From: Oscillospiraceae bacterium
Lineage (GTDB): Bacteria; Bacillota; Clostridia; Oscillospirales; Ruminococcaceae
Length of the DNA stretch: 64,000 nucleotides
Direction: 5' to 3'
NCBI GenBank assembly: GCA_017848115.1
Contig: JAGAKZ010000030.1
Coordinates: forward strand, 1-64,000
Shown here: one piece after another, positions 32,163 through 64,000 of the stretch
Layout: each line of letters begins with the position of its first letter
Position numbering within the stretch: the first letter of the stretch is position 1
Made by a program: the position numbers and the translations under genes
Notes under the pieces: generated by a model
The model's database searches: none
What the model saw: only the letters and a program-made list of their open reading frames with translations
Told to the model about the DNA's origin: nothing

Positions 32163-32330
32163 GCCCTGAATGGGCAGTAACTTGGTGGTGAAAGTTCACT
32201 GCAAGCTTGGCAGTAGGAACTGTTAGCGAAAGGCAAGTGCGTCCATCGTGAGGTGGAGTATGAAGCAAGCCCGTAGCAAACTCTCGGTCTGACGAACAGA
32301 AACTGCATATAAGGCAATATCTGAAAAATC
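32163..32330 (+). mobile_element. Remnant of a group II intron (domain I region), no maturase gene
   Basis: The segment carries runs typical of domain I of bacterial group II introns: GGTGGTGAAAGTTCACTGC, AGCTTGGCAGTAGGAACTG, GCGAAAGGCAAG, CATCGTGAGGTGGAGT and CTGACGAACAGAAACTGCA. These match what I recall of gut-Firmicute introns. There is no reverse transcriptase frame, and no domain V-like hairpin was found downstream before the next gene remnant, so this is a truncated copy. It directly precedes a truncated solute-binding protein gene. Confidence 0.62.
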
Positions 32331-32370
32331 AGAAAATAAAGATATAGCGTGGCTTTTTATACGTTAATTT

Positions 32371-32691
32371 TTGACAGATGAATATCAGGACAAACTCGTT
32401 AAGTCGTATGGAAGCCCATTTCCGTCAAATAAGCAGAAAATGAAAGCTTCTATAGAAAATGATGTGGTTATGTATATGATGAATGAAACAGTTGAAGCTG
32501 ACCTCAATACAGAACGTTTTGACAAGGTGCTTGAATTGTTTGAGAGACCTATACTAATGAACTATGAAAATAATAAGATTTTAGGCATAGTAGTTGAGGA
32601 AACTGGTAAATTCCTTGCAGGAGAAGAAACAGCAGAGAGCGTTGCAAAAAACATTCAGAGTATTTGCTCAAAGTATCTTGCGGAGTCGTAA
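32371..32691 (+). pseudogene. C-terminal fragment of an extracellular solute-binding protein
   Basis: The 106-residue frame resembles only the end of an ABC solute-binding protein: a C-terminal helix region with ETGKFLAGEETAESVAKNIQ and SICSKYLAES. The same kind of ending (EEIASDMQSRISLYMSEIS) is present in the fusion lipoprotein at 34677-37559. There is no signal peptide, N-terminal domain or good ribosome site, and an in-frame stop lies just upstream. It is probably a relic cut off by the intron remnant or a deletion. Confidence 0.6.
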
Positions 32692-49513: not shown

Positions 49514-49538
49514 GTCGCAAATTTCATTAATTTGCGAC
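49514..49538. repeat. Inverted repeat between NACHT and integrase genes
   Basis: GTCGCAAAT, 7-base loop, ATTTGCGAC. No T-run follows, so an operator or recombinase-binding site is likelier than a terminator. The rest of 49412-49723 is AT-rich, with one further TGCGACA at about 49458 and the direct repeat described separately. I see no gene there. Confidence 0.45.
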
Positions 49539-49676
49539 AGCTACCCAATGATTAGATTATAGCATTCTGGATATATTTTTTCAATATATTTAAGCGGTTT
49601 TCGTGTGAATATACAATAGTGTTGTTGCTTGAATATAACATTTTCACAAATAAAATGTTTTAAAGAGTTTATTTAA

Positions 49677-49723: not shown

Positions 49724-50812
49724 ATGTCGAGACGTGGAGAAAATATTTACAAAAGAAAAGATGGCAGATGGGAAGGAAGAATTCGTCTTAACAATAATTC
49801 CAAAGGAAAATCGGCTTATAAATCTGTTTACGGAAAGACTTATAAAAGCGTCAAAGAAAAATTGATTCTCATGAGGACAGACAATATCACTACTGATATA
49901 CCATCATCACGAAACGTGCGAGTTCTTTTTGAAGAGTGGTTTTCTTCGGTAAAACTTAAAGTAAAGCCCTCTACCTACAGCAATTACAGAATGAAAGCCG
50001 AAAAACATATTCTTACCGAATTTGGCGATATGCGATATGAGCAAATCGATGTAAATATGGTTCATAGATTTATAGAAAAAAAGCTTAGTTGCGGTCTTTC
50101 TGAAAAATATGTTTCTGATATAATGATCGTCTTTCGTTCCATGGCACGATACATGAATCGTGTATATGGCATGAAAAATATAATAGGTGAAGCGACTATG
50201 CCAAGAATAAGTAAAAAAGAGATCACTGTACTTAACGAAACGCAGCAAATGGTACTGCACAGATATCTTACTGAAAATATGAACAGTACATCTATTTGTA
50301 TTCTGTTAAGTTTCTATACAGGCATACGTATCGGTGAAGTATGTTGTCTTACGTGGAATGATATCGATCTTGATAAAAATATAATAAAAATAAACAAAAC
50401 AGTTCAACGTATGCAGGACATAGATCTGCTGTCTACAAAAATAATAACAGGTCCACCCAAGTCAGAGTCATCAAAGCGAACGATCCCGTTATCTCCGTTT
50501 CTTGCTGAAATTCTTGCAAAACACAGAAAATCACCAAATACTTACGTTCTTTCCGGAAACGAAAGTATTACAGAACCACGTACTCTCCAGAGACGTTTTA
50601 AAACAGTTCTGAAAAATGTCGGATTACCCGATATACATTATCACAGCTTACGCCATATGTTTGCTACTAACTGTATAAAAAAGGGCTTTGATGTGCGTAC
50701 ACTTTCAGAAATACTGGGACATTCATCAGTAGAAACAACGCTTAACAGATACGTTCACTCATCTATGTCACGTAAAATAGAATGTATGAATATGATCACA
50801 CCGGCTGTATAA
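49724..50812 (+). CDS. Tyrosine site-specific recombinase (integrase)
   Basis: A 362-residue phage/ICE-type integrase. N-terminal AP2-like DNA-binding sequence (RGENIYKRKDGRWEGRI), SAM-like core-binding domain (about 60-165), and catalytic domain with the tyrosine-recombinase residues visible: R in YTGIRIGEVC, HSLRH, LGHSSVETTLNRYVH (His and nucleophile Tyr). All catalytic residues are present, so it should be active. It is isolated: no excisionase or phage genes are adjacent. It is flanked by a 15-bp direct repeat and lies next to the NACHT gene and the Zorya-like operon. Confidence 0.92.
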   Translation: MSRRGENIYKRKDGRWEGRIRLNNNSKGKSAYKSVYGKTYKSVKEKLILMRTDNITTDIPSSRNVRVLFEEWFSSVKLKVKPSTYSNYRMKAEKHILTEFGDMRYEQIDVNMVHRFIEKKLSCGLSEKYVSDIMIVFRSMARYMNRVYGMKNIIGEATMPRISKKEITVLNETQQMVLHRYLTENMNSTSICILLSFYTGIRIGEVCCLTWNDIDLDKNIIKINKTVQRMQDIDLLSTKIITGPPKSESSKRTIPLSPFLAEILAKHRKSPNTYVLSGNESITEPRTLQRRFKTVLKNVGLPDIHYHSLRHMFATNCIKKGFDVRTLSEILGHSSVETTLNRYVHSSMSRKIECMNMITPAV

Positions 50813-50838: not shown

Positions 50839-51172
50839 ATATGATATTTGGTAAAAGAAGAATTTACGTGATTTGTGTAAAATAACCGCAAATTAATGAA
50901 TTTTATGTCATGCTATTATTATACCAATAATTTATTATGATAGTATTATGATTATGAAAAAAATGTTTGAAAATTTTAAAGATTCTGATGATTTATGGGA
51001 TGAAATTTAAGAAATATGAGATATGGGATTAACAATGGGGTATTAGCAGGATTTTCGTCAGGGAATAAGTGCCGGCTAATAATATCAGTATACCAAAAAC
51101 TTGCATTGTTAAAAACTGTAACATGTGCAAGCTTTTTTATTTATATCATAATTTTTTTAGGAGGGGTTATAG
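50839..51172 (+). other. Leader region of the Zorya-like operon
   Basis: A 334-base interval without an accepted gene. It holds an 18-codon mini-frame (50954-51010, MKKMFENFKDSDDLWDEI) without a clear ribosome site, a possible stem ATTAGC...GCTAAT (about 51042-51080), and a terminator-like hairpin at 51100-51140. Together these look like a structured mRNA leader. An overlapping frame at 51016-51222 has no ribosome site and odd composition and is not called. Confidence 0.4.
51100..51140 (+). terminator. Hairpin with T-run in the leader of the Zorya-like operon
   Basis: CTTGCA-T-TGTTA-loop-TAACA-TG-TGCAAG followed by CTTTTTTATTT, 33 bases before the first gene of the operon. Could end integrase transcription or attenuate the operon. 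Confidence 0.5.
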
Positions 51173-51376
51173 ATGAATGCATCTGTAGATATCACAACGA
51201 CCAGAGTATGTGCTTTTTGTAAGTATTGGTGGGATCCGGCCTGTCAGTATATAGTTCCGCACCTGGGGAAAACATGGTTTTATAATAATGGGGTTAAGTG
51301 CAAATGTATAAAAAAAGGTGTGGAATCAGCATCGTATCATTCATGTGCGATGTTTAAGTTAAAAATAGAGTACTGA
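51173..51376 (+). CDS. Small Cys-rich protein at the head of the Zorya-like operon
   Basis: A 67-residue protein with a strong ribosome site (AGGAGGGG, 51160-51167). Cysteines lie in CAFCKYWWDPACQY, CKCIKKG and HSCAMF, a spacing compatible with a small zinc-binding domain. Two Trp and several aromatic residues suggest a compact fold. I do not recognise a family. It is 18 bases ahead of the ZorA-like gene, so it is probably part of the system, perhaps as regulator or adaptor. Confidence 0.6.
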   Translation: MNASVDITTTRVCAFCKYWWDPACQYIVPHLGKTWFYNNGVKCKCIKKGVESASYHSCAMFKLKIEY

Positions 51377-51394
51377 TAATTAAAGGGGTGTAAA

Positions 51395-53770
51395 ATGATG
51401 GGTAAAGGTAATGTGTTAAATATAATAAAAATTTTAGTTGCTACGTTAATTCTTTTGGCGTTCACAATTGTTTCAGGAAAAAATGTTGAAGGCGGTATGT
51501 TTTCAATGATATTCAACATTATATTCCTTGTTATGATGTTTATTATTATACTTAAGTTTGTATTTGCAGAAATAAGATGTGCAATAGAATTAAAAAACGA
51601 TTTTAATAAGTTTACTAAAAAACTTAGGGAAAAAAAGGCGTCTGATGATAAGTTGACGCCAAATACGGGCAATCAGAAGAACTTTGACTGGAAGGATATC
51701 AGCTTTGCTAATTCTCAATTGAATAGCGCTTTTTCAGAGTATATAAACGAGACAAAAAGGTTGTCAAAAGATAAAATAGAGTTTGATGATCTAGGGTGTG
51801 ACATAGATGATTATATAAATATTAAGCTGTTAAACGGAATAATAAAAAAATCAGTTTGTGAGTCTATATCAGGTTCTATGACGGGACTTGGAATACTTGG
51901 TACGTTTTTGGGACTGATCATAGGATTAAAGGATTTCAGTATAGATTATGAGGGCATACAAAACAGTATTCTTATGTTGTTAAATGGTATCAAAACAGCA
52001 TTTCTTACGTCAATATACGGTGTGGTTTACTCTATTCTGTTTAACTGGATCTTTCAGAAAGCTTATTCAGAAATGTCAGATGCACTTAACGAGTTTAAAT
52101 CAGTATTGAATTCTAAAAGTGTACATAACACGCAGAATAATATGAAACTGAAATTTGTCTCCACACAAGATAAAATAATTGAGATTCTTGGTAATAATTC
52201 AGCAATAATTTCTACAAGTACAAATAATCTTACTGAGCAGTTTAAAGAATCTATGATGGAAATGACAAAAAATATTAAAAACTATCTCGAAAATCTGAAT
52301 ATCAATCAGCAGGAACAACTTAAAACCATGGTTCGAGAATATCTTGTGACAATGAATAAGGAAATACTTGGCGGACAATTTGAAGAAATGAGAACTACGC
52401 TTAGCAAGATAAACGAGGCAAATGAGCTTTACTATGAAAGAATAACATCTTTGTCTGCAAAGATAGAAGATAGCGGTAATTCATTTGTAATGATGAGCGA
52501 CAGATATCACGAAATTGTCTGTAGTTTTCAGCAGTACGTCAACCAACTCGGAGGTTATCAGCAGGCAGTTACAACGGCTAATGATCATCTTACCAAAAAT
52601 ATGGAAGTGCTCACTGTCAGATATGATGCTCAGAATCAGCAAAACGAAAATCTTAATAAACTCATGGAAAGACAGGCACAGCTTAATGAACAGCTTGAAA
52701 ACTCAATCAATGATTCTGTAAATAATAACAAACAATTCACTCAGAGTACAGAAGAACTGATAAGACAAGTAAGCGAGTCCAACAGAGAAGTTAATGAATA
52801 CGCAATGCAGACAGCGCAAATGAGCAGAGATGTAGCAGAGGAGATCAGTACATATACAAGAACGAATATGGACGAATGTGTTAAGTCATTTGATAACTTA
52901 TCATCAACATTTATAAGTGCATCGGAAAATATTGATAATACAAGTAGCAGATATCGTGAAATTATTGAAGGTCTGCAGTTGTATATCAACCAGCTCGGAG
53001 GTTATCAGCAGGCAGTTACAACGGCTAATGATCATCTTACCGAAAATATGGAAACGCTCACTGTCAGATATGATGCCCAGAATCAGCAAAATGAAAATAT
53101 TGCAGGAAATATCGAAAATCTCAATAAACTCATGGAAAGACAGGTACAGCTTAACGAACAGCTTGAAAACTCGATCAATGATTCTGTAAATAATAACAAA
53201 CAATTCACTCAGAGTACAGAAGAACTGATAAGACTGGTAAGTGAGTCAAACAGAGAAGTTAATGAATATGCAATGCAGACAGCAATTACGAGCAAAAATG
53301 TTGCAGAAGAACTCACCACATACACAAAGGAAAATATGGAAGAAAGCGTAAAGGCTCTCAGTGATATGTCAGCAACATTTGCAAGTGCTTCAGAAAATAT
53401 CAGTACTATGTACAGAAACCTTACAGAAGATATGTCAACGAAATTTACAAGTACTTCAGAAAATATTGATAGTATGTACAATAACCTTACAGAAAATGTT
53501 GCTGATGGCTTGTGCAAGTCATTCAAAGCATTTGATCATGATACTGCTGAAATAGTACGTAGGTTCAGCGATACACTTGAAGCTATGAAAGAAACAATGG
53601 ACAGCATACCAGATAAACTTTATGATTCTGTAAACAGTGCATTTGTAAAGTTCATTGGTGAGCAGGAAAGAGTTCGTTCTATTGCACGAACAAGAGAAAA
53701 GTCAGATGATAATATAGACCATGAGAATCCGGAACCTGAAAATCCGGATACAGAAAAATCTGATGATTAA
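51395..53770 (+). CDS. ZorA-like MotA/TolQ/ExbB channel protein with long helical tail
   Basis: A 791-residue membrane protein. TM segments are at about 9-27, 36-58, 162-178 and 200-220. TM3 carries the MotA/TolQ/ExbB-type glycine motif (SMTGLGILGTFLGLIIGL) and TM4 AFLTSIYGVVYSILF. Residues about 240-770 are a continuous helical, Gln/Asn/Glu-rich coiled coil in the cytoplasm. This 4-TM plus tail design is the Zorya subunit ZorA: a proton-driven stator that turns or pumps with ZorB and signals through its tail. Two near-identical segments of the tail (149-residue period) show a recent duplication. The start is ATG 51395 or 51398 after AAAGGGGTG. Confidence 0.85.
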   Translation: MMGKGNVLNIIKILVATLILLAFTIVSGKNVEGGMFSMIFNIIFLVMMFIIILKFVFAEIRCAIELKNDFNKFTKKLREKKASDDKLTPNTGNQKNFDWKDISFANSQLNSAFSEYINETKRLSKDKIEFDDLGCDIDDYINIKLLNGIIKKSVCESISGSMTGLGILGTFLGLIIGLKDFSIDYEGIQNSILMLLNGIKTAFLTSIYGVVYSILFNWIFQKAYSEMSDALNEFKSVLNSKSVHNTQNNMKLKFVSTQDKIIEILGNNSAIISTSTNNLTEQFKESMMEMTKNIKNYLENLNINQQEQLKTMVREYLVTMNKEILGGQFEEMRTTLSKINEANELYYERITSLSAKIEDSGNSFVMMSDRYHEIVCSFQQYVNQLGGYQQAVTTANDHLTKNMEVLTVRYDAQNQQNENLNKLMERQAQLNEQLENSINDSVNNNKQFTQSTEELIRQVSESNREVNEYAMQTAQMSRDVAEEISTYTRTNMDECVKSFDNLSSTFISASENIDNTSSRYREIIEGLQLYINQLGGYQQAVTTANDHLTENMETLTVRYDAQNQQNENIAGNIENLNKLMERQVQLNEQLENSINDSVNNNKQFTQSTEELIRLVSESNREVNEYAMQTAITSKNVAEELTTYTKENMEESVKALSDMSATFASASENISTMYRNLTEDMSTKFTSTSENIDSMYNNLTENVADGLCKSFKAFDHDTAEIVRRFSDTLEAMKETMDSIPDKLYDSVNSAFVKFIGEQERVRSIARTREKSDDNIDHENPEPENPDTEKSDD
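52497..53390 (+). repeat. In-frame tandem duplication in the ZorA-like tail
   Basis: Unit 1 (about 52497-52922) and unit 2 (about 52944-53390) match at a 447-base (149-codon) offset. The core (YQQAVTTANDHL and NNNKQFTQSTEELIR) is almost identical even at third positions. Unit 2 has a 21-base insertion adding AGNIENL. A shorter repeat of the form FASASENI / FTSTSENI follows at about 53377-53490. These add heptad-compatible length to the tail without breaking the frame. Confidence 0.85.
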
Positions 53771-53794
53771 ATACGTTGAAGGGGGAAATAGAAT

Positions 53795-54595
53795 ATGAAC
53801 AGAAAATATCCAGACGATGACAGTGACAACGAAAAGCCGGAGTATTGGAAATCTTACTCCGATCTGATGTCAGCATTGTTGCTTGTATTTGTTCTGATGA
53901 TGTCTGCTACGTTATTGCACTCTTTAAACATTTATCATCAAAAAATTGAGGAAGAAACCAAAATAAAAGCTGAACTCGAACAAAAGGCACTGGAACATCA
54001 GGAACTTATAGAACAAATCAAGGAGCAGAGTGAGCAACTGGAAGAACAACAGGCACAGATCGAGAAACTGATAGGTCTTAAAGAAGAGATTATAATCAGT
54101 CTCAGTGAAGAATTTGCAAAAACAGATCTTATTGTAGAAGTTGACCCTATGACCGGTTCTATTGCGTTTGACTCCAGTATATTGTTTCCTACTGATTCAT
54201 TTGAACTAAGTGAACAGGGAAAAGTTTTTCTTGACAGTTTTATTCCTGTTTATTTTGAAGCACTGATGCACAGTGAATATATGGAATATATCTCAGAAAT
54301 AATAATCGAAGGTCATACCGATACAGACGGTGATTATATGTATAATCTTGAACTGTCACAAAAAAGAGCGTTGTCAGTATGTAAGTATTGCATAGACACA
54401 CTTGAAAACAATCAGAAGTTTAACAAGGAACATATACGCCGTATAATCACTGCAAACGGCAGATCATGGAGCAATCCTGTTTATAACAACAATGGTGAAG
54501 TGGACAAAGATGCTTCAAGACGTGTTGAATTTAAGTTTTCTTTAAAAGATGATGAAATGATCAGTACAATGAAGGGAATTTTGGAAAATGATTAA
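53795..54595 (+). CDS. ZorB-like MotB/OmpA family protein
   Basis: A 266-residue protein. A single TM segment (about 24-42) is preceded by YSDLMSALLLVF, with Asp23 in the position of the proton-carrying Asp of MotB/ZorB. A Glu/Gln-rich coiled coil follows (about 45-95), then a peptidoglycan-binding OmpA domain (about 110-255) with IIIEGHTDTDGDYMYNLELSQKRA and SRRVEF. It would anchor the ZorA-like stator to the cell wall and conduct protons. It sits 24 bases after the zorA-like gene, as in Zorya operons. Confidence 0.85.
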   Translation: MNRKYPDDDSDNEKPEYWKSYSDLMSALLLVFVLMMSATLLHSLNIYHQKIEEETKIKAELEQKALEHQELIEQIKEQSEQLEEQQAQIEKLIGLKEEIIISLSEEFAKTDLIVEVDPMTGSIAFDSSILFPTDSFELSEQGKVFLDSFIPVYFEALMHSEYMEYISEIIIEGHTDTDGDYMYNLELSQKRALSVCKYCIDTLENNQKFNKEHIRRIITANGRSWSNPVYNNNGEVDKDASRRVEFKFSLKDDEMISTMKGILEND

Positions 54596-55277
54596 TATAA
54601 ATAATTTTATATTTAAACCTGAAAATTTATCTGTTGAGCATGACATAATATGTAAGACTGATATAGCTGCACTTACAGATGATGAAGTCAGGGTGCTGAC
54701 AGATAAGTATACAGACAGAGCCTCGGAAGGTGTAAGTGATACAGAAATAGTTGGTATGGTATTGTGGGGTGCTGATAAACAGGATACCGTGTCAAGAAAA
54801 ATGGTACTTGAATTTTGGTCGAAGCATAATTCAGACATGGCTTTAAAGATGGTATATTCAATCTGGCAAAACAGATACGATTCGGGATCTTTTTCAGAAT
54901 TATGCGGTTTACTGTTAAAGAATATCAGAGATGATAAAACATGGATAAAACACTGGAAACTCTGGATGACAGCAAGCGATATCCCGACTATCGCAGCAGG
55001 TTATGCTGCCGCTTACTGTCTTGAAAAACAGCAATCATACAATCAGTGGACGGAGCTCAGCCGTATCGATTCAAACAGCAGACTCGGAAAAACAGTACAT
55101 GAATTGTTCTTTTGTTTTTGTTCAGAAAAAGACTTTCAGTGTACTGACAGAGAACTTGTCGAATATATAGAAAATATGGGTGCTGTACATAGGGAAAGGC
55201 TTTTAAGAAATATTTTGCGTATGGATACTGGTAAATATCCTGATGCTCTTTCACTTTTATTTTCTGCTTTGACATAA
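54588..55277 (+). CDS. Unknown helical protein of the Zorya-like operon
   Basis: A 229-residue protein that starts inside the ZorB-like gene (8-base overlap), so it is translationally coupled and very likely part of the system. The sequence is all-helical and Trp/Lys-rich (MALKMVYSIWQN, WIKHWKLWMTASD, YAAAYCLEKQQ), suggesting a helical-repeat scaffold. It is far shorter than ZorC and I see no clear match to the EH-signature domain, although the position (third gene) is that of ZorC. No catalytic motif found. Confidence 0.6.
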   Translation: MININNFIFKPENLSVEHDIICKTDIAALTDDEVRVLTDKYTDRASEGVSDTEIVGMVLWGADKQDTVSRKMVLEFWSKHNSDMALKMVYSIWQNRYDSGSFSELCGLLLKNIRDDKTWIKHWKLWMTASDIPTIAAGYAAAYCLEKQQSYNQWTELSRIDSNSRLGKTVHELFFCFCSEKDFQCTDRELVEYIENMGAVHRERLLRNILRMDTGKYPDALSLLFSALT

Positions 55278-55338
55278 GGCAGGTTTGATTCGGATCGGCA
55301 GATTGTGATGATTGAAAATATGAAAGGAATTTGGAGTT

Positions 55339-57999
55339 ATGAATAATAAGAAAATAGTTAAATTAATTGCAGAATACAAAGAATCAGGAAAAACAGGCAG
55401 AGTTACGTATGAAAATATATACGGCATATTCAGCCTGGAGTTGCCTGAGTTTGATCCAGCCACAAAGATAAAAATGATCTGCGATAACGGTACAGATGTA
55501 AGTATTGATTTTCGGGATTTTTGCATGATTAAATCAGGAGAGGCAAATTTTCTGAGCGAATCTATGTACAAGGATATAGAAATGCTGCTTGACGGTGAAA
55601 ACTATAACTTTATAATAAGTGAAGTTTCTGTATCGGATAAAAAAACTCCTTCTATAAGTTATGTAGATGCTACAGAAAATATCCTTCTTGGTTTTCCTGT
55701 TCTTACTGCGGAAATCATTAATGGCAGGGATAACGGTATCTGGTCAGACAGCGGAGAAAGATTGTTTGTGGTGACTGTAAAAAATATGCCTTTTGAAAAT
55801 GACGTAGATCCTGTTCTTGAATTTACTCATTTTGATGAACATGAAATGTATGATCCTAAACCTGCTGCAGTTATAAAAAAAGACGGTGAAAATGTTTTTC
55901 TTTGCAGTATTGATACAAAAGATTTTGATATATATATGGAGCCTGAAAAGTTAAAGGTTTCTATAAAGGGTAATTTTGTAATAAGCGGTATTTCAGACAA
56001 GAGCGGAACAAAGATATCTTATGAGATTCCTCTTTCATTTGTTATGAATAATTCAAAATATTTTGATCCGAAAAACAAGTATATCTGCATAGATAAAAAT
56101 TCAAAAGTATCAATAGATTTCGGAACATCATCTACCTGTGCGGCAATCAAGACGAACATTGTTTCAATGATAGAAATGTCCCCTGACATAAACGGTTCAA
56201 GTGCCTATAGTGTTTATGAAAACCCTACAAATCTGATGATGTATCGCTGGAAAGAATTTAAAGAGAAATGGAACGCAGTAACAGTACAGCCTCTTATGAG
56301 AAAAGTCGGTGAAGATTATCCTCAATATAGTCCGGCATCGTTTGATTTTGGTCATCCTGTAAAGGATATTCAGATTGATAATCAGCGAAAGCTTGATTCT
56401 ATCATAAAACAGTTAAAAATGATTCCAAAGATGATTAAAGACGGAAAGGAAATAAAAGTCCGGGATTATGCAAATACAGATGAGTTTGAACTGACCAGTG
56501 ACAAGACAAACTCAGAAAATGTTTTTAATCCTATAGAGTTTTATGGATATTTGCTCGGAAAAGCAATAAACCACCCAAATGGAACTAAAAACTGTTTTTA
56601 TACAAAGTACTTGCTTTCATATCCTGTAAAATTTTCAGAAGAAATCAGAAAACAGATAGAAGACGCTTTGACAAGCGGAATTAAACGTTCCCTTCCTGCA
56701 TATGTATGTGAATTAAAGGACGACAAGGGTAAAGACCTTTTACAGGTAAAAATGAAATATTCAGAACCTATTGCCTGTATCGGTGCCGCCTGCGATGAGG
56801 AACTTGTTTTGACCGATGGTAACCCCTGCTTGTTTGGTGTGTTTGATTTTGGAGGCGGAACATCAGATTATTCATTTGGTATGTATAGACAAGCAGATAT
56901 AGATACAGAAGGATATGAGGAGGCGATTGAACTTTTTGGTGTTGATGGTGACGAATCATTTGGTGGGGAGCTTATTATGAGCAAGATCTCATACTGGATC
57001 CTTACTTCTCCGGATATGGGAAATAAGTTTACAATCATAGAAAAAAATGTGCCGTTTGAAAAACCGGAAGATGAACTGATTGAAGATGGTTTTGGGAATC
57101 TTATACAAAATACGATAGGTGCTATAGCAAATATACGAAAACTCAATGAGTTGGTTGCACGTCCGTTTTTTGAGGGTAAAAAACTGTCTGCAACATATGA
57201 ATCCGGTAGTATTTTTAACGAAGATCCTCAGACAGGAAGAGTTGGATATTGCGGAATAACATCTATTGAGATCGATATGTTTGTACTTGGTTCAGATAAC
57301 GAAACAGAACCAGTTACATTAAACATTAACTTTGATACTCTTAATCAGAAACTTGAAGAGCTTTTTAAGAAAAAATGCCGGGCTTTTGCTGTATCTATGG
57401 ATAAAGCGTTTAATCTTACTGAATCAAAAGAAAAAATGGAAAAAGCAGGCGTTGAATATAAAAAATCTGCTGTAAAAATTATTATGTCAGGGAACAGTTC
57501 AAGACATCCGCTCATAAAAAAGTGTCTTAGTGACGAATTTAAAGAAAATGATATTTGTCTCTTGGGCGAAAACAGAGTGGATAACGGAAAGAACAGATAC
57601 AGAGTAACCCCCAAAACAGCAGTTGCTATAGGGGCTCTCAGACTTGAACAGATGCTTGTAAACGAACCTGCAACGATAAGTATTATTTATGTTGCAATAG
57701 AAGTGAAGTCAAAGCGTGAAATAATTCTTTCAGGAGATCTGAAGGATCACATATGGAAGAGAGTCGGTGTCGTAACAGACGGTTCAGTTACAATATATAA
57801 AAGCAGTATACCAGATGTTAACAGCAAACTATTATGGGAAGGTATTGCACTTGAATTTGAGGAATTTGATACCAGAATGGTCTGCTATATCAGACAGTGC
57901 GGACGTGACGAAATAGAATACACAGCCGTTCCTGTTGGTGTTGATCCGAATAATATGGACATTGAAGAATTGGAAATATTAAAAGAAAAATTAAATTAA
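55339..57999 (+). CDS. Hsp70/actin-fold ATPase with large N-terminal extension
   Basis: An 886-residue protein. Residues 1-255 form a beta-rich domain of unknown family. The actin-like ATPase fold begins with phosphate-1 motif SIDFGTSSTC (Asp260), phosphate-2 FGVFDFGGGTSDYSFG (Asp503) and the adenosine motif IIMSGNSSRHPLI (about 715-725). A C-terminal beta part ends near 886. The DnaK-type substrate-binding domain is not recognisable. The layout resembles the SrfB-type large Hsp70-like proteins found with dynamin-like partners. A role in assembly or disassembly of the motor or of the GTPases is inferred. The ATG follows TTTGGAG. Confidence 0.75.
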   Translation: MNNKKIVKLIAEYKESGKTGRVTYENIYGIFSLELPEFDPATKIKMICDNGTDVSIDFRDFCMIKSGEANFLSESMYKDIEMLLDGENYNFIISEVSVSDKKTPSISYVDATENILLGFPVLTAEIINGRDNGIWSDSGERLFVVTVKNMPFENDVDPVLEFTHFDEHEMYDPKPAAVIKKDGENVFLCSIDTKDFDIYMEPEKLKVSIKGNFVISGISDKSGTKISYEIPLSFVMNNSKYFDPKNKYICIDKNSKVSIDFGTSSTCAAIKTNIVSMIEMSPDINGSSAYSVYENPTNLMMYRWKEFKEKWNAVTVQPLMRKVGEDYPQYSPASFDFGHPVKDIQIDNQRKLDSIIKQLKMIPKMIKDGKEIKVRDYANTDEFELTSDKTNSENVFNPIEFYGYLLGKAINHPNGTKNCFYTKYLLSYPVKFSEEIRKQIEDALTSGIKRSLPAYVCELKDDKGKDLLQVKMKYSEPIACIGAACDEELVLTDGNPCLFGVFDFGGGTSDYSFGMYRQADIDTEGYEEAIELFGVDGDESFGGELIMSKISYWILTSPDMGNKFTIIEKNVPFEKPEDELIEDGFGNLIQNTIGAIANIRKLNELVARPFFEGKKLSATYESGSIFNEDPQTGRVGYCGITSIEIDMFVLGSDNETEPVTLNINFDTLNQKLEELFKKKCRAFAVSMDKAFNLTESKEKMEKAGVEYKKSAVKIIMSGNSSRHPLIKKCLSDEFKENDICLLGENRVDNGKNRYRVTPKTAVAIGALRLEQMLVNEPATISIIYVAIEVKSKREIILSGDLKDHIWKRVGVVTDGSVTIYKSSIPDVNSKLLWEGIALEFEEFDTRMVCYIRQCGRDEIEYTAVPVGVDPNNMDIEELEILKEKLN

Positions 58000-58016
58000 G
58001 GAGTGTTAAAAATACA

Positions 58017-59168
58017 ATGTGTATACTTGGAAAAAAATTCAATGAAATCATTGAAAAACTTGATAATATTATTACAAAACTTGATGGTATTAATGAGCCT
58101 TTGAAAAACAAGTCGGATTCTTTAGAGAGAGCGTCAACTGAAAAAGACGACGATAGTCTTGCTAAGCAAAAGGAGAGAATTGAAAAAGAAAGAGAAGACA
58201 AAGAAACACGTATTCAACAACTTCAAGGACAGATAGACACAGTCAACAAAGAAAAAGAAGAACTTGAAAGAAAGGTAGAGACAGCCAACAAAGAAAAAGA
58301 AGAACTTGAAGGAAAGGTAGAGACAGCCAACAAAGAAAAAGAAGAACTTGAAGGAAAGGTAGAGACAGCCAACAAAGAAAAAGAAGAACTTGAAGGACAG
58401 ATTGCCAAAGCTAACGAAGAAAAAGAAGAACTTAAAGGACAGATAGCCAAAGCTAATGAAGAAAAAGAAGAACTTGAAGGACAGATAGCCAAAGCTAATG
58501 AAGAAAAAGAAGAATTTAAAGGGCTAATATCTAAAGCCAATGAAGAAAAAGAAACACTTGAAGGACAGATAGCCAAAGCCAATGAAGAAAACAAAACACT
58601 TCAAGGACAGATAAAAACAGTCAGTGAAGAAAGAGATAAGATGCAGACAACTCTTAACAAAAAAGAAAGCATAATACATAATTACGAGCAAAAAACAAAG
58701 GATTATATTTCTTTACTGGACAAAGTTTGTGGCTGTAGATCGATGAAAGATTATTGCGAAGAAAATAGTATTGTAAATGACGGTTCAATAGATTCAGTAC
58801 TCAGGTTTATAGAAATAGTCGGAACCAGAACCAGTTTTGCACGAACCATCAAAAACAGCATCGAGAGATACAAGAAAAGGAATGGTTACTATCCGGTTTC
58901 TGATGATGAGATCAGACTTATCGATGAAGTAAACAGTTTTTATAAAAATAAATTCGGAGAAGAATTAAGTTCAGATGTGTTGTATTTTCCGGGGGATTTT
59001 GAAAAAGGAAAGGTTTCAGATGTTCGTTTTCAGTATATTCAGCAGGAAATGTGCGATTATCAGAACAGTCCCGGTATAAGATACGCAAGTGAGATATACT
59101 CTCCATGCTATAAAAGTATTGACATCGGACTTGACAGAGCTATGGTAAAGGGTATATCTTTGGGGTGA
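58017..59168 (+). CDS. Coiled-coil protein with ten 14-residue repeats
   Basis: A 383-residue protein. Residues 1-30 are an amphipathic helix (FNEIIEKLDNIITKLDGINEP). An unbroken coiled coil covers about 50-235, built in its middle (residues 71-210) of ten 14-residue units of the type GQIAKANEEKEELE. The C-terminal globular domain (about 240-383; ISLLDKVCGCRSMKDYC, YYPVSDDEIRLIDEV, MCDYQNSPGIRYASE) is unrecognised. It may be a spacer, tether or nucleotide-exchange partner for the Hsp70-like protein before it (inference; GrpE-like order but no GrpE signature). It overlaps the ribosome site of the first GTPase gene. Confidence 0.6.
   Translation: MCILGKKFNEIIEKLDNIITKLDGINEPLKNKSDSLERASTEKDDDSLAKQKERIEKEREDKETRIQQLQGQIDTVNKEKEELERKVETANKEKEELEGKVETANKEKEELEGKVETANKEKEELEGQIAKANEEKEELKGQIAKANEEKEELEGQIAKANEEKEEFKGLISKANEEKETLEGQIAKANEENKTLQGQIKTVSEERDKMQTTLNKKESIIHNYEQKTKDYISLLDKVCGCRSMKDYCEENSIVNDGSIDSVLRFIEIVGTRTSFARTIKNSIERYKKRNGYYPVSDDEIRLIDEVNSFYKNKFGEELSSDVLYFPGDFEKGKVSDVRFQYIQQEMCDYQNSPGIRYASEIYSPCYKSIDIGLDRAMVKGISLG
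58227..58646 (+). repeat. Ten tandem 42-bp repeats in the coiled-coil gene
   Basis: Ten consecutive 42-base units encode 14 residues each, ending in the pattern KEKEEL or a variant of it. Units 2-4 are almost identical DNA; later units differ more. This is an in-frame, length-variable minisatellite, not a CRISPR array. Confidence 0.85.
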
Positions 59169-59174
59169 TAAAAT

Positions 59175-61496
59175 ATGGATAATAAAAACAAAAAATCTGA
59201 TAAAGTGAAAACCGTTATAACTTCACTTCTTGGTCTTAAAACAGTAAACGACAATCAATATGTTGTTGGCGAACTTAAACGTATGGCAGAGCGTATGAAT
59301 GACGAGATATTCAGAATAGCCGTAGTAGGTGAGTTCAGTTCGGGAAAGTCAACTTTTATAAATGCACTGATCGGAAAGGATATCCTTTCACACGCTCGCC
59401 GTGAAACAACTGCAGCGATCACCTATATAAGAAATGTTTCGGCAAGTGACAGCAATTGCGGAAAAGTAATAATAGAATTTCGTGACGGAAGTCAGAAGAT
59501 GCTTGATGATTTTGCACAGATAAAAGACTATACCACAGCACAGAGCGATAACAGTGTTGCCGAAAAAATAAAATCCGTAACTGTCTATGTAAATTTTCTT
59601 GGCAGTGATGCACCTATTCTGGTCGTTGATACTCCCGGACTTAACGGTATAGCCAAGCATCACCGTGAGATAACTATCGAAGAGATGAAGAAAGCACATA
59701 CCTGTATCTATCTGCTTTCCTCTACCGGAATATCAAAATCAGATGTTGATTTTATACGCATACTTAATGACTATCAGTCAACTTTTCTTTTTCTGCAGAA
59801 CTTCATAGACGACCTTTCTTTGTCAGAGGGCGATTCGGCAGAGAGTAAAACAAGAGAAGATGACAGGATAATCCGTGAAAGCATTCTTGGGGAAGAAAAA
59901 ACTTTTAACTACAAAGTTATAGGAATATCGGCATTAAAAGCGCTCGCCTCAAAAGATCGTTCTATCACAAAGCTTTATTCAAAAGATTACAGGGAACTGA
60001 CAGACGCAGATCGTCCCAGATTGTATAAAGAATCAAACTTTTCTGAGCTTGAACAGCATCTTCGCAGATTGATCGAAACAGAGGAATACAAATCAGTTAT
60101 AGTTGACTCTGTAAAGAGAAGACTGACAATAGTACTTGAGGGACTACTCGGACAGCTAGATGAAGAACAGAAGTTCAATATTCAGATGCGTGAACAGGAC
60201 GAGGGAACAAAGCGAATCAATGTCGCAAAAGCTATTATAGAAAAGATGGACAATACCGTAGGCGATCGTGAGAGAAAACTCAGAAATTTCATAAAGAGTA
60301 CATCAGATAAACAACAGATGTTGCTTGAAAAAGATATGAAAGTGAAGATCAACAGTTTATATGATGAGATCTGTAAAGATATTGATGATAAGATACCTGA
60401 TTATCAGTCTTTTAAAGATTTTATGAAAAATTATGACATGAGTCCGCCAAGGTACTACGGTGAAATGATAAGCGAAAAGATAAACTATGATATTATTCCC
60501 GAAATTAAGGATACTGCAAATTTGTTCCTCAATCATATATACGAACTTGCTATAGAACGTATTGAAAGTTATTCAAATGTTGCAGTAAGAACAACCAAGA
60601 AAAGTTTTAATGTCGGAGAACTTACAGAATCATTTCAGATGGAAGAAACCGAGAGCATCAGTAATATAGAATCAATGGAGTATAAATGCAAAAACCTGAA
60701 AAACAGCATAGATCTGCTTCGAAGAAAAAATGCAGATCGGGAGAAAAATCTATCTGCTGCAAAAGAAGTGGAACAAAGAATAAACGGAATGATAAGTGAT
60801 TTTAACTATGAAAAGCAGAGAGCAGTCTCAAGTCTTGGAAGTCGTCCCGAAGCACTAGAATGGAAAACATCGAAGACGGTTTGGGTTTCAAGAGGTGGTC
60901 CGATAAGAGATCGGATTTTTGGGAAAATAGAAAAAACAGTTTATGACTATCATACAGATGACTCTGCCGGTGAAGAATGGGATAAACGAATAAGAGAAAA
61001 ACTTGATGAGTTTCGCCCGAAAGAACGAGAGCTTAATAATCTTCTTTCCGATGCAAGAAGTAAATCCGATTCTATTTCAGATGATATTTATAATAATAAC
61101 AATCAGATAAAAAAGGCTGAAAAAGAGATAGAGTTTTTTAACCAACAGATACAGATACAAAAAGAAATATATCAGAATGAAGTAAAACTCAGTCAGAGTA
61201 AATTCTGTGACAGACAGAAAAGTCTGTTAAAAAACGATATACATTACAAAATGCTCGAAATCGGGGAAAAAGGCAGTACGGTCTCATATCTTACAGAATA
61301 TATCCGCAAAGTTTTTAGTCAGAATGAAATCATGATCGAAGATATCGGTATAGAAGAACTAAGAAAGGCTCTTTCAGGACAAAAAGCGGAATACGAACGC
61401 CTTATCAGTGAAAATACCGACAGTCTTGAAAAAAGATATCAGATAAATGAATCCGATCTTAAAGTTATAAGGTTGATTTATAACGATATTGCATAA
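59175..61496 (+). CDS. Dynamin-like GTPase, first of three
   Basis: A 773-residue protein. G domain: G1 GEFSSGKS (52-59), G2 Thr in RRETTAAITYIRN (78-79), G3 DTPGLNG (152-158). A canonical G4 [T/N]KxD is not visible (the position reads LQNFIDDLS). The rest is long helices of the stalk/bundle type (about 300-760), with a Tyr/Pro-rich middle (DMSPPRYYGEMISEKINYDII). No TM segment or PH domain is present. Bacterial dynamin-like proteins bend, tubulate or repair membranes, and some act in antiphage defence. It starts six bases after the coiled-coil gene; a second and third GTPase follow. Confidence 0.8.
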   Translation: MDNKNKKSDKVKTVITSLLGLKTVNDNQYVVGELKRMAERMNDEIFRIAVVGEFSSGKSTFINALIGKDILSHARRETTAAITYIRNVSASDSNCGKVIIEFRDGSQKMLDDFAQIKDYTTAQSDNSVAEKIKSVTVYVNFLGSDAPILVVDTPGLNGIAKHHREITIEEMKKAHTCIYLLSSTGISKSDVDFIRILNDYQSTFLFLQNFIDDLSLSEGDSAESKTREDDRIIRESILGEEKTFNYKVIGISALKALASKDRSITKLYSKDYRELTDADRPRLYKESNFSELEQHLRRLIETEEYKSVIVDSVKRRLTIVLEGLLGQLDEEQKFNIQMREQDEGTKRINVAKAIIEKMDNTVGDRERKLRNFIKSTSDKQQMLLEKDMKVKINSLYDEICKDIDDKIPDYQSFKDFMKNYDMSPPRYYGEMISEKINYDIIPEIKDTANLFLNHIYELAIERIESYSNVAVRTTKKSFNVGELTESFQMEETESISNIESMEYKCKNLKNSIDLLRRKNADREKNLSAAKEVEQRINGMISDFNYEKQRAVSSLGSRPEALEWKTSKTVWVSRGGPIRDRIFGKIEKTVYDYHTDDSAGEEWDKRIREKLDEFRPKERELNNLLSDARSKSDSISDDIYNNNNQIKKAEKEIEFFNQQIQIQKEIYQNEVKLSQSKFCDRQKSLLKNDIHYKMLEIGEKGSTVSYLTEYIRKVFSQNEIMIEDIGIEELRKALSGQKAEYERLISENTDSLEKRYQINESDLKVIRLIYNDIA

Positions 61497-61546
61497 CAAT
61501 GATATTCAAGAGGAAATCAATAAATATACAGAGGTGAAAAAAGTTT

Positions 61547-63850
61547 ATGAACAATGAAAAACAAGAATTTTTGGAGAGAAAAGAGAGAGTAATGTGTTCT
61601 CTTACACAGGCAATAGATTTTCTGAGAGACAACTCTTTTGAGAAGGAAGCATCTGTACTTGAAGCACAGTATGAAAATCTGAAAAACGAAGAATTTGTCA
61701 TAACTATCGTCGGAGAATTCAGCAGTGGTAAATCCTATCTTCTCAACGCTCTTATGGGTGACAAACTTCTGCCGTCATACAGCGGTGAGGCAACAGCGGC
61801 AATAAATTTTCTGCGTCACACCAAAAAATCCCTGAGCGGAAAAGCAGGTTGTGTATACTACAAAGACGGAACTATAGAAGAATTTGATAATGCTGATGAA
61901 GAAACTATAACCAGATATGCCTGCACAAGAGCAGGAGATGACGTAACAACGGATATTGACCATATTGATATATTTCTTGAAAACAGATTTTTAGAGGACA
62001 ATGTAACTCTGGTCGATACTCCCGGGTTGAACGGAATAAAATCAGGACTTGCCGATCTTACCAGACAGCAGATAGAAAGATCGAGTGCGAGCATATTTAT
62101 GTTCAATGCAAGACGTCCCGGTTCAAAGACTGATTTTGAGGCACTTTCTATGCTCAGAAAAAAGGTAGACAGTATTTTTCTTGTTCTGAACGCTGTTGAT
62201 CTTGTTGATGAGTCAAACGGTGAATCTGTAGAATCTATTATTCAGACTCTTGAAGATGAGTATAGAAAAGATTTCCCCGATGATAAAAAACTGACTAAAT
62301 TTCATCCGGTTTCAGCTAAAATGGCACTTGTCGGAAGAAGTCCCAAAAAGATCGAGTTTGTAGGTCGTACTGATTTTACAGCTGAAGAGAAGGAAAGATA
62401 TATTAAAGAATCAGGTATGCCTGAGTTTGAAGATTATTTGTTTAAGTATCTGACCAAGGGGCCGAAAGGGCGACAGATTCTTTTAGCGCCTGCTGTTCAG
62501 CTCAACGAACAGCTCGAATGTGTGGGTGATGCGCTTGAAAACGAGCAGAGAATTCTCAGCGGAAGTACGGATGTTGCACGACTTGATGAAATCTGCAGTG
62601 AGCTTGAAAAAACAGTTCAGAGTCTGGAAGAACGCATGGAGAAGGATAAAAACAGGATATCCTCTGAAATAAAAGATATAGAAAAAACTTTCAAAGAAGA
62701 ACTTGAAGCCGAATCAGGATATTTTTCAAATCATTATATTGATAAGATAAATAACTTTATCGACATAGATGAAATTATGCCTGATAATATATGCAAGGCT
62801 ATCAGCAAATCATTAAACAATATTGTTTCAGACGCTTTTAAAAATTACAGCAGACAGTTCGAAGAAATGATCATTGATTACAACAAAGAAATTAATGATG
62901 AGCTGGCAGATATGATAAATATGGAGGACTTTAAGTTACCGCAGTTAAAGCAGATAGAGCTGACCAGCTTTGAATCAGGTGTTGAAGAGTATGAAAGACA
63001 ACTTGCTTTGATGAGGGAAGAAAGCAATAAGCTTGAGAGTGAAATGGAAAAAGCCGAAGAGCAGAGTATTCAGGCAAGAAAACTTGCTCAGGACCGAAGA
63101 AGGATAGAGCGAAAAATAGAAAGTTATGAAGAAGAGATGCGTTCCTATAAAAAAGAAGCTATGTTGAGTATGCCAAATCTTGTGAAAAAAACGGAGTCTT
63201 ATGTCGAAAGAGTTGATCGTGATGGATTTTTGGGCAAATTCGCTGATTTTGTCGTTGGCAGACAAGCTGTAACAATGACAAGAGATATTATTGATTCAAC
63301 TGCACGAGATGCATATAAAAAGCAAATGGACGAAAATTTGTCTGACTATAACAGAGAGATAAGTTCACTTCAGTCTCAGGCAGACAGATACAGGGGAACC
63401 GATCCTGAACTGGCTGAAAAAATCGAGCGTGATCTACAGAGAAAATTCAAAGAAAAACGTCAGGCAGAACTTGAATATCAGAAAGAATTTGCTGAAAAGA
63501 TCAAAGAAACATGTGCCAGACAGCTCAGAGTTCAAAAGGAAGAAGTAATTGAATATATTCATGAAACAGTACGTGAAATAGTAAAGGAAGCCGAAAATTA
63601 TTTTAAAGCAGGACGTAAAGCACGTACAGATGTTGTTATAACTCTTTTGACACGTTCACTGAAAAAACAGATAGATGAAAAATGTGAAGAAATTAAAACA
63701 CTGAAAAAACAGGCAGTTATGCAGGAAAATGAACGTGAAGAGAGAATTGCACAGATAGGCACTTTGACAAAGACACTGGGTGGGTTGAGAATACAGGCGC
63801 TTGATCTTAAAGATGAACTTGAAGCAATTGAGGAATATATCATAGAATAA
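61547..63850 (+). CDS. Dynamin-like GTPase, second of three
   Basis: A 767-residue protein. G1 GEFSSGKS (56-63), G2 Thr in GEATAAINFLR, G3 VDTPGLNGIK (Asp157) and a diverged G4 LNAVD (about 213-217). Long helical stalk (about 330-760) contains a short hydrophobic, glycine-rich patch (FLGKFADFVVGRQAV at about 560-575) that could be a membrane-binding paddle. Pairs of different adjacent dynamin-like proteins often form hetero-oligomers (as in LeoABC or Cj DLP1/2), so this and the previous gene are likely partners. GAGGTG at 61531-61536 precedes the ATG. Confidence 0.8.
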   Translation: MNNEKQEFLERKERVMCSLTQAIDFLRDNSFEKEASVLEAQYENLKNEEFVITIVGEFSSGKSYLLNALMGDKLLPSYSGEATAAINFLRHTKKSLSGKAGCVYYKDGTIEEFDNADEETITRYACTRAGDDVTTDIDHIDIFLENRFLEDNVTLVDTPGLNGIKSGLADLTRQQIERSSASIFMFNARRPGSKTDFEALSMLRKKVDSIFLVLNAVDLVDESNGESVESIIQTLEDEYRKDFPDDKKLTKFHPVSAKMALVGRSPKKIEFVGRTDFTAEEKERYIKESGMPEFEDYLFKYLTKGPKGRQILLAPAVQLNEQLECVGDALENEQRILSGSTDVARLDEICSELEKTVQSLEERMEKDKNRISSEIKDIEKTFKEELEAESGYFSNHYIDKINNFIDIDEIMPDNICKAISKSLNNIVSDAFKNYSRQFEEMIIDYNKEINDELADMINMEDFKLPQLKQIELTSFESGVEEYERQLALMREESNKLESEMEKAEEQSIQARKLAQDRRRIERKIESYEEEMRSYKKEAMLSMPNLVKKTESYVERVDRDGFLGKFADFVVGRQAVTMTRDIIDSTARDAYKKQMDENLSDYNREISSLQSQADRYRGTDPELAEKIERDLQRKFKEKRQAELEYQKEFAEKIKETCARQLRVQKEEVIEYIHETVREIVKEAENYFKAGRKARTDVVITLLTRSLKKQIDEKCEEIKTLKKQAVMQENEREERIAQIGTLTKTLGGLRIQALDLKDELEAIEEYIIE

Positions 63851-63867
63851 GCGGTGGTGAAAAATAT

Positions 63868-64000
63868 ATGAACAAAAACCTTGAAGAACTTATAGAAATA
63901 AGTGACTATCTTGGAGATATTGATTCTTCAGCGTTACTTCACACCATGAGTCAGACGCTTCTGGCAGGAAATTATGTACTTACAGTTATGGGGCAGTTTT
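63868..64000 (+). CDS. Start of a third dynamin-like GTPase (cut by window end)
   Basis: Starts at ATG 63868, 17 bases after the second GTPase, with GGTGGTG upstream. The 44 visible residues end ...YVLTVMGQF. In the two previous genes the same position reads as a strand leading to GEFSSGKS, so MGQF is the beginning of G1 of a third GTPase. The rest lies beyond the window. Confidence 0.6.
   Translation, partial: MNKNLEELIEISDYLGDIDSSALLHTMSQTLLAGNYVLTVMGQF

Follow-up and report, generated by a model that had tools for sequence, protein, structure and literature searches.

A Zorya-type membrane pair in one gene run with an Hsp70-fold ATPase and three dynamin-like GTPases, and an adjoining recombinase cassette, in an Oscillospiraceae bacterium

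Can the ZorA-ZorB membrane pair of Zorya defence systems be joined to an output other than effectors that act on DNA? This question is raised by a gene run in an Oscillospiraceae bacterium (GenBank assembly GCA_017848115.1, contig JAGAKZ010000030.1), in which a ZorA-ZorB-like pair is followed by a ZorC-like gene, an Hsp70-fold ATPase and three dynamin-like GTPases. We analyzed positions 1-64000 of this 133,321-base contig (hereafter the window) together with the part of the run that extends beyond the window edge. We tentatively read the run as one phase-variable, envelope-sensing, Zorya-related defence system whose predicted output is remodelling of the membrane instead of cleavage of DNA, and give this reading slightly less than an even chance.

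The listing of open reading frames (ORFs) bore out the coordinates and strand of the gene run in the original prediction, which was made from the window sequence. Eleven genes lie on the forward strand from 51173 to contig position 68682, in the order Cys-rich protein, ZorA, ZorB, ZorC-like protein, Hsp70-fold ATPase, coiled-coil protein, GTPases 1, 2 and 3 (G1, G2 and G3), a 368-amino acid (aa) protein (U) and a second coiled-coil protein. All eleven frames are open, without interruption. The successive intergenic gaps are 18, 24, -8, 61, 17, 6, 50, 17, -20 and -4 bases, the final three lying at or past 64000; up to G3, they agree with the spacing, mostly -8 to +61, that had been predicted. 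The ORF that opens the run (51173..51376, +) encodes the Cys-rich protein of 67 aa. The run ends at 68682, and the next gene on this strand, at 69143, appeared by eye to be ABC-transporter-like. The run had been expected to continue past the window, possibly into a nuclease gene. The continuation was found, and no nuclease was seen among ORFs of at least 100 aa as far as contig position 80000, where profile searches reached 68682 and the remainder was judged by eye.

ZorA (51395..53770, +; 791 aa) consists of a MotA/ExbB-type channel and a long cytoplasmic tail, about 550 residues beyond the channel, and was recognized with Pfam, PADLOC, solved structures and NCBIfam. In PADLOC it matched ZorA2 (1.5e-22) and ZorA1 (4.8e-22), and the best-ranking NCBIfam families were likewise ZorA families, below their cut-offs. 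Six solved chains matched ZorA at E<=0.1 and every one was ZorA, four being so named and two (8vvn and 8vvi) being ZorAB entries according to the cited part of PMC11890865. ZorB (53795..54595, +; 266 aa), with one transmembrane helix that bears the conserved Asp23 and an OmpA-type peptidoglycan-binding domain, matched PADLOC ZorB1 (2.7e-76) and Pfam OmpA (7.7e-13). Among solved chains, the ZorB profile matched best to 8qyd, a ZorAB entry, in its chain F (7.9e-27), which was deposited as 'Membrane protein'. The membrane aspartate D23 and the EGHTD motif were invariant in 4/4 aligned ZorB proteins. Thus, the features of Zorya membership, namely a ZorA with channel helices and a long C-terminal tail and a ZorB with a membrane aspartate and an OmpA-type domain, are present. 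For Zorya types I and II, the cited part of PMC11890865 describes the ZorB aspartate, the peptidoglycan-binding domain and the ZorA tail as important in defence. Judged by sequence, the pair is Zorya-type rather than ordinary TolQ/ExbB-type. The earlier naming of the pair was therefore confirmed, with Zorya chains coming first among solved structures, and the alternative of an ordinary ExbB/TolQ-OmpA gene pair was not upheld.

The ZorA, ZorB and GTPase profiles used for comparison were built here with the window and L004, L006, L010, L005, L022 and L076 as seeds (L, loci; G, genomes; P, protein clusters of relatives). These seeds match the profiles by construction, and for them independent support comes from separate comparisons. 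ZorB-profile matches in G408 and G391 were larger proteins with no ZorA match adjoining, and those in G1332, G1387 and G1409:C20 were left out of the comparison.

The third gene counted from ZorA (54588..55277, +; 229 aa) had been predicted as a helical unknown; the gene is present, and its relative at L177 makes ZorC-like the better name. The window protein had no significant family match in Pfam or PADLOC. Relatives in the equivalent position matched it in L004 (369 aa), G686 (L106, 395 aa) and G1409 (L177, 407 aa). The L177 copy matched Pfam EH_Signature at 1.7e-5 (24.8 bits, below the cut-off of 27.5) and PADLOC ZorC1 at 0.0013, and both matches fall in the half that is absent from the window copy. 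Neither family was matched by the scanned relatives L004, L106, P0005, P0009, P0012 and P0014. Further, the L177 protein matched no plasmid record and no solved structure significantly (best E 0.49). Six protein clusters (P0003, P0005, P0007, P0009, P0012 and P0014) have the ZorC-like part as an N-terminal fusion to the Hsp70-like ATPase; the window protein found five of them at E 7.1e-29 to 1.2e-7, and the L004 copy found P0014 at 7.5e-36. Because the two parts form one polypeptide in six relatives, these sequence comparisons suggest that the third and fourth genes, encoding the ZorC-like protein and the Hsp70-fold ATPase, very probably work together as partners. The P0003 and P0007 fusions carry the short form, without the EH half, and the short form is therefore recurrent and not unique to the window. 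At L006:5332-12322 and L010:352-8328, ZorAB is followed by a protein of 384 or 417 aa, respectively, in the ZorC position and then by an Hsp70-like gene; this protein looked TerB-like by eye (AAAEGKLTAE in L006).

The predicted structure of the 886-aa ATPase (55339..57999, +) matched DnaK/BiP at 13-19% identity, as the original assignment to an Hsp70 fold had anticipated. The protein comprises an N-terminal beta-rich part (residues 1-250), a nucleotide-binding domain (253-771) and a C-terminal part that corresponds in the alignment to the substrate-binding beta domain. According to this model, the ATPase has an Hsp70/actin-fold nucleotide-binding domain. Both domains align with those of Hsp70/DnaK, whereas the 250-residue N-terminal part is additional and no Pfam match, HSP70 included, was obtained. 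Its relatives P0005, P0012 and P0014 reached 14.5-18.8 bits with Pfam HSP70, under the cut-off of 20.6, and P0009 had no match. The close Hsp70 clade was found in the window's own genome only, among 391 genomes of the class (at 1e-40) and 398 of the phylum (at 1e-60), and the 11 genomes of the genus yielded no second copy of it. The Hsp70 profile was matched in 9/11 genus genomes, own included; the matches in the others are presumed to be C35-type paralogues or the row of three in G687.

The comparison of ATPase relatives in genome contigs covered the best 80 of 248, among which L007 and L008 appear to be duplicates of a single locus. Several of these 80 have a tandem pair of Hsp70-like genes, and G687 (L178:2-8676) has three consecutive ones. 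At four further Hsp70-like loci, L098-L101, no ZorA, ZorB, ZorC-like or GTPase profile matched. A second operon type shares the Hsp70-like family (L005:5592-22113, L007, L009, L011 and L012), in the order Hsp70, coiled coil, a gene of about 200 aa, an unknown of about 500 aa, a gene of about 250 aa and an AAA ATPase. In L005, the gene of about 200 aa is a radical SAM/4Fe-4S gene, the AAA ATPase matches Pfam AAA and is IetA-like in PADLOC, and a LeoBC-like dynamin with Sel1 repeats is also present.

A coiled-coil repeat protein of 383 aa (58017..59168, +; from the ORF listing) separates the ATPase from the GTPases. G1 (59175..61496, +; 773 aa, P-loop GEFSSGKS) and G2 (61547..63850, +; 767 aa) matched Pfam Dynamin_N at 5.9e-25 and 2.6e-23, respectively. 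G3 (63868-66219, +; 783 aa, of which the window holds 63868..64000) was found by a GTPase 2 of a core cassette at 5.3e-17 and resembled the DynA type in NCBIfam (2.3e-7, below cut-off). The G2 model (mean pLDDT 83.5) aligned over residues 1-764 with mitofusin and bacterial dynamins, including a neck and trunk of BDLP/mitofusin type; among the three GTPases, this fold assignment comes from G2. These matches and the G2 model agree with the original prediction, and by sequence the GTPases are dynamin-like. Where active-site motifs were read, namely in the GTPases, ZorB and Hsp70, they were intact.

Past the window, the 368-aa protein (contig 66200-67306, +) and the second coiled coil of 459 aa (contig 67303-68682, +) complete the run; both lay outside the range of the original prediction. 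The 368-aa protein has a relative in the core cassettes, where a protein of 369 aa comes after G1-G2 (hhalign probability 90, E 1.5e-6); no link to a 372-aa protein of L128 was obtained (hhalign probability 0.5). Its start, KVMIIGEFSS, is P-loop-like without GKS, and we considered a pseudo-GTPase; this was rejected, as profile comparison gave a probability of only 0.2-0.3. Family and NCBIfam searches returned nothing significant, and a large protein search found only the protein itself, missing relatives in G491 and in the genome of L004 (3e-17 and 1e-19). In G491 (L131 and L132), the GTPase 2 gene is split across two contig ends with integrase-like genes close to the break, as though an element had entered close to the DTPGLNG motif.

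How does the run compare with known systems? With Zorya type I, it shares the ZorA and ZorB families and, through the relative with an EH signature, a ZorC-like third gene. The gene order of Zorya type I is A-B-C, and the window has the same order. In contrast to type I, the window has no recognized ZorD; the Hsp70-fold ATPase stands in its place with three dynamins after it, and the EH half is absent. In PADLOC, ZorD had no match among seven operon proteins, nor in the second coiled coil, and ZorE, ZorF and ZorG had none among the eight operon proteins scanned; the scan excluded G3, which matched dynamin, and the 368-aa protein. The ZorAB core is likewise common to types II (ZorE) and III (ZorF and ZorG), whose effectors were not recognized in the window. 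No recognized nuclease or helicase gene occurs in the run, and the predicted lack of a nuclease effector accordingly agreed with the PADLOC results. The Zorya effectors known so far act on DNA, as stated in the cited part of PMC11890865. Tandem dynamin-like GTPases and a BDLP/mitofusin-like fold are shared with LeoA-LeoBC, DynA, BDLP and the 5oxf pair. The LeoA/LeoBC system is named Eleos; unlike it, the window has three GTPases, the 368-aa family and coiled coils. The LeoA/LeoBC scores of G1 and G2 were weak (1.9e-15 and 1.5e-21 in PADLOC, with no curated cut-off); in L005, by comparison, the LeoBC-like protein reached 5.6e-78. In the literature on Zorya, dynamins and phase variation, from which subscription journals were mostly missing, we found no report of ZorAB combined with Hsp70 and dynamins. 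We concluded that the system is Zorya-related by its core and lies outside types I-III as defined by their effectors, being a variant with new neighbours.

We then asked whether the two modules occur together elsewhere. Among the best 80 of the 248 relatives, ZorA and ZorB adjoin an Hsp70-like gene at three (L004, and L006 and L010 of Selenomonadaceae), and GTPase matches lie near an Hsp70-like gene at six (L005, L012, L022, L061, L076 and L078). Two of the 80, L022 (Methylovulum) and L076 (Pseudomonas), have a cluster of three dynamin-like GTPases and an Hsp70-like ATPase, the smallest L022 GTPase scoring below the Pfam cut-off. Of the predicted gene order, these partial combinations were seen elsewhere, and the complete run in one genome only. 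The genome of L004, a Ruminococcus metagenome-assembled genome, holds both modules on separate contigs. The second of these contigs encodes G1-G2-G3-U plus the beginning of a coiled-coil protein, and this beginning matches the coiled coil of L131 (6.3e-45) and not that of the window. The ends of L004 and L141 do not overlap, and we therefore do not claim that they adjoin. In the window's family, at least 8/396 genomes, own included, have a close G2, a lower bound because G686 has a close G2 and is not among the eight. GTPase cassettes were located at 11 loci in 10 genomes: the window, L125, L126, L127, L128, L129, L130, L143, L141, L131 with L132, and L133. After the ZorA-ZorB-ZorC-like core, the downstream genes of four loci differ, being Hsp70 and dynamins, Hsp70, a PtuA fragment, or five unknowns. 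The PtuA-like fragment in G686 (L106:15439-16182; 247 aa) directly follows the core and has little over half the length of its family. In G1409 (L177:3744-16161), the unknowns are 546, 163, 537, 1151 and 322 aa; hydrophobic segments occur in several of them, and the five possibly form a different output module. Searches of viral contigs gave 40 pattern matches, none of which was confirmed, and two plasmid records matched over at most 64% of the query.

Longest contigs of equal length pair Hsp70 and GTPase 2 relatives in P0006/P0127 (46947) and P0008/P0141 (19402). Over 119 of the 120 listed GTPase rows, such pairs made up 2/14 Zor-clade rows versus 0/96 others, with 0.15 expected from near misses. 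A length of 9702 is likewise common to L141 and P0151, and P0151 differs in sequence (40% to the G2 of L141), showing that chance equalities occur; same-contig placement is therefore only weakly hinted at.

What controls the run? Upstream lies a recombinase cassette that the original prediction did not include. A tyrosine recombinase (49724..50812, +; 362 aa; Pfam Phage_integrase 8.1e-28), with XerA/XerC-type and weak DNA-invertase matches in NCBIfam, all below cut-off, is flanked by two candidate recombination sites. The left site (49514..49538) is a perfect 10-5-10 dyad, GTCGCAAATT-TCATT-AATTTGCGAC; the pattern, taken from the site of L157, had one match in 64 kb with 0 mismatches, where 0.04 would be expected at <=3 mismatches. 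The right site (50885..50909) has the inverse orientation and the same spacer TCATT, and the inverted-repeat score of the two flanks was reached by 1/200 shuffles. Inside the segment, a predicted promoter (49556..49584, -; TTGAAA-17-TATAAT with TG before the -10, 11/12 consensus bases) points outward across the left site to a gene for a NACHT/STAND-like NTPase (47093..49411, -; 772 aa). This protein matched Pfam AAA_16 (2.8e-4) and NACHT (0.014), both below cut-offs, and had no PADLOC or NCBIfam match; Walker A (GTGGIGKT) and Walker B (LLLDG) motifs were read from its sequence. Farther away in the window, positions 32242-32454 matched a group II intron domain (Rfam RF02001, 52.2 bits).

Perfect inverted repeats flank homologous recombinases at L157 (25 bp), L158 and L161 (31 bp), L162 (27 bp) and L007 (19 bp), and the repeat arms of L157 are the same as those of the left site in the window. 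The window, L157, L158 and L161 each have an outward promoter with 11-12/12 consensus bases, a 17-bp spacer and TG, 15-30 bases inside the repeat; these counts come from consensus matching, and L158 and L161 represent the same locus, seen in two different genomes. No promoter of at least 11 consensus bases was found at L007 or L162. Between L158 (own genome, C60; 9535-10774) and L161 (G626, same genus; 6834-8073), the 1,240-base recombinase segment is inverted at 99.4% identity, with flanks 98-99% identical in one direction. Cassettes of this type therefore flip in nature, as this cassette, a paralogue of the one in the window, shows, and because of that inversion the operon in the window is probably phase-variable.

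The left site reads as a terminator-like hairpin on the strand of the NACHT-like gene and could damp the promoter toward that gene. A hairpin with a T run lies just upstream of the operon (51095..51137, +) as a possible leader terminator, which could stop leakage into the operon. It folds at -11.2 kcal/mol over 51095-51150 (z -2.28; equalled by 4/200 shuffles), z becomes 0.25 when the stretch is lengthened, and the terminator-scan output did not contain it. Similar arrangements are known from E. coli fim, with a promoter between the repeats, and C. difficile cwpV, where inversion acts via a terminator in the OFF transcript (both in the cited part of PMC2784873). The window shares the tyrosine recombinase and inverted sites with them, and differs in that its recombinase gene is itself part of the flipping segment, which has the NACHT-like gene on one side and this operon on the other. 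The L158/L161 cassette adjoins genes that by eye resemble exopolysaccharide or capsule synthesis, the L007 cassette adjoins another Hsp70-like operon, and two Ruminococcus contigs (L141 and L142) have a recombinase of this kind upstream of GTPases.

Past gene identity, we infer every step of the following mechanism. By analogy with Zorya types I and II, ZorB would anchor in peptidoglycan, and ions would begin to flow when the envelope is disturbed, setting the ZorA tail in motion. The ZorC-like protein, one polypeptide with the ATPase in six relatives, would link this tail to the Hsp70-fold ATPase, whose nucleotide cycle may load or release coiled-coil and GTPase assemblies. The GTPases would assemble into polymers on the inner membrane where it is disturbed; there they would either delay lysis, by sealing or tethering the membrane, or end the infection by disrupting it. 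Lysis by phages is delayed in B. subtilis by DynA, which clusters at the membrane (cited part of PMC8844932), and a similar delay is by analogy a plausible output of the operon. In this assembly the promoter faces the NACHT-like gene; inversion would face it to the operon, and cells would then alternate between the two, since inversion redirects the promoter. The most specific version, a new Zorya type in which ZorAB, through the ZorC-like protein and the Hsp70-fold ATPase, drives three dynamins to operate on the membrane at the phage entry point, in alternation with a NACHT-type receptor through promoter inversion, we regard as doubtful.

Several observations weigh against one phase-variable machine. 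At the switch, the right site is only 19/25 identical to the left, and no inversion of the window's own cassette was seen. The EH half is missing from the ZorC-like protein, no profile ties the 368-aa protein to the GTPases or to a known function, and the low pTM of the G2 model (0.50) makes its domain placement uncertain. In the cited part of PMC8844932, DynA colocalised neither with sites of DNA entry nor with attached phages, which speaks against GTPase recruitment to the entry point. Further, the modules are often separate. At nine GTPase-cassette loci, 990 bases or more are visible ahead of G1 (561 at L132 and none at L133), and eight of the nine have no ZorAB within the sequence read there; Hsp70 and GTPases are both missing from 2/4 loci with ZorA-ZorB-ZorC-like (G686 and G1409); and the genomes of L006 and L010 had no GTPase-profile match at 1e-10. 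On these distributions, the coupling of motor output to the GTPases stays a prediction. In the genome of L004, the GTPase cassette directly follows its own recombinase, of the same family, and not ZorAB, and for this reason looks autonomous there. No second genome with the complete run was found, and it is on this account that we infer, rather than observe, a single machine. The separate occurrences and the recombinase in the genome of L004 would suit two independent systems behind one promoter, ZorAB-ZorC-like-Hsp70 and G1-G2-G3-U-coiled coil, which share transcription and not mechanism. However, only 6 bases separate the coiled coil from G1, three GTPases accompany an Hsp70-like gene in L022 and L076, both modules occur in the genome of L004, and the equal longest contigs weakly favour linkage in the Zor clade. 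Because the modules are often apart and the complete run was seen only here, we hold one machine at just under an even chance and regard two stacked systems as unlikely, though the leading rival.

The run might instead maintain the envelope, with the stator and chaperone-like ATPase positioning dynamins that repair or shape stressed membrane. A G1-G2-U cassette in a similar neighbourhood at four genus loci (L125, L126, L127 and L143) looks like vertical inheritance, and the Hsp70 profile matches in most genomes of the genus, with the second copy in the window's own genome standing alone. However, the close Hsp70 clade is patchy in class and phylum, the switch adjoins a NACHT-like gene, and we know of ZorAB from defence only; we consider maintenance improbable. 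That the locus is a decayed Zorya type I system, with ZorD gone, ZorC shortened by its EH half and the neighbours acquired by chance, would fit the 229 aa of the ZorC-like copy against 369-407 aa in three relatives, but the eleven open frames, the intact motifs and the likewise short P0003 and P0007 fusions make it very improbable.

If the single Zorya-related defence system is the true reading, one envelope sensor, ZorAB, can feed a membrane-remodelling output instead of DNA-acting effectors. Dynamin-family GTPases have an antiviral role in eukaryotes, and the run would be a bacterial parallel. The different genes downstream of the ZorA-ZorB-ZorC-like core at four loci point to modular exchange of effectors. 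Further, the switch between the operon and the NACHT-like gene raises the question of whether bacteria phase-vary whole defence systems against each other, and if a new Zorya type alternates with a NACHT-type receptor, the population would hedge between two immune programmes.

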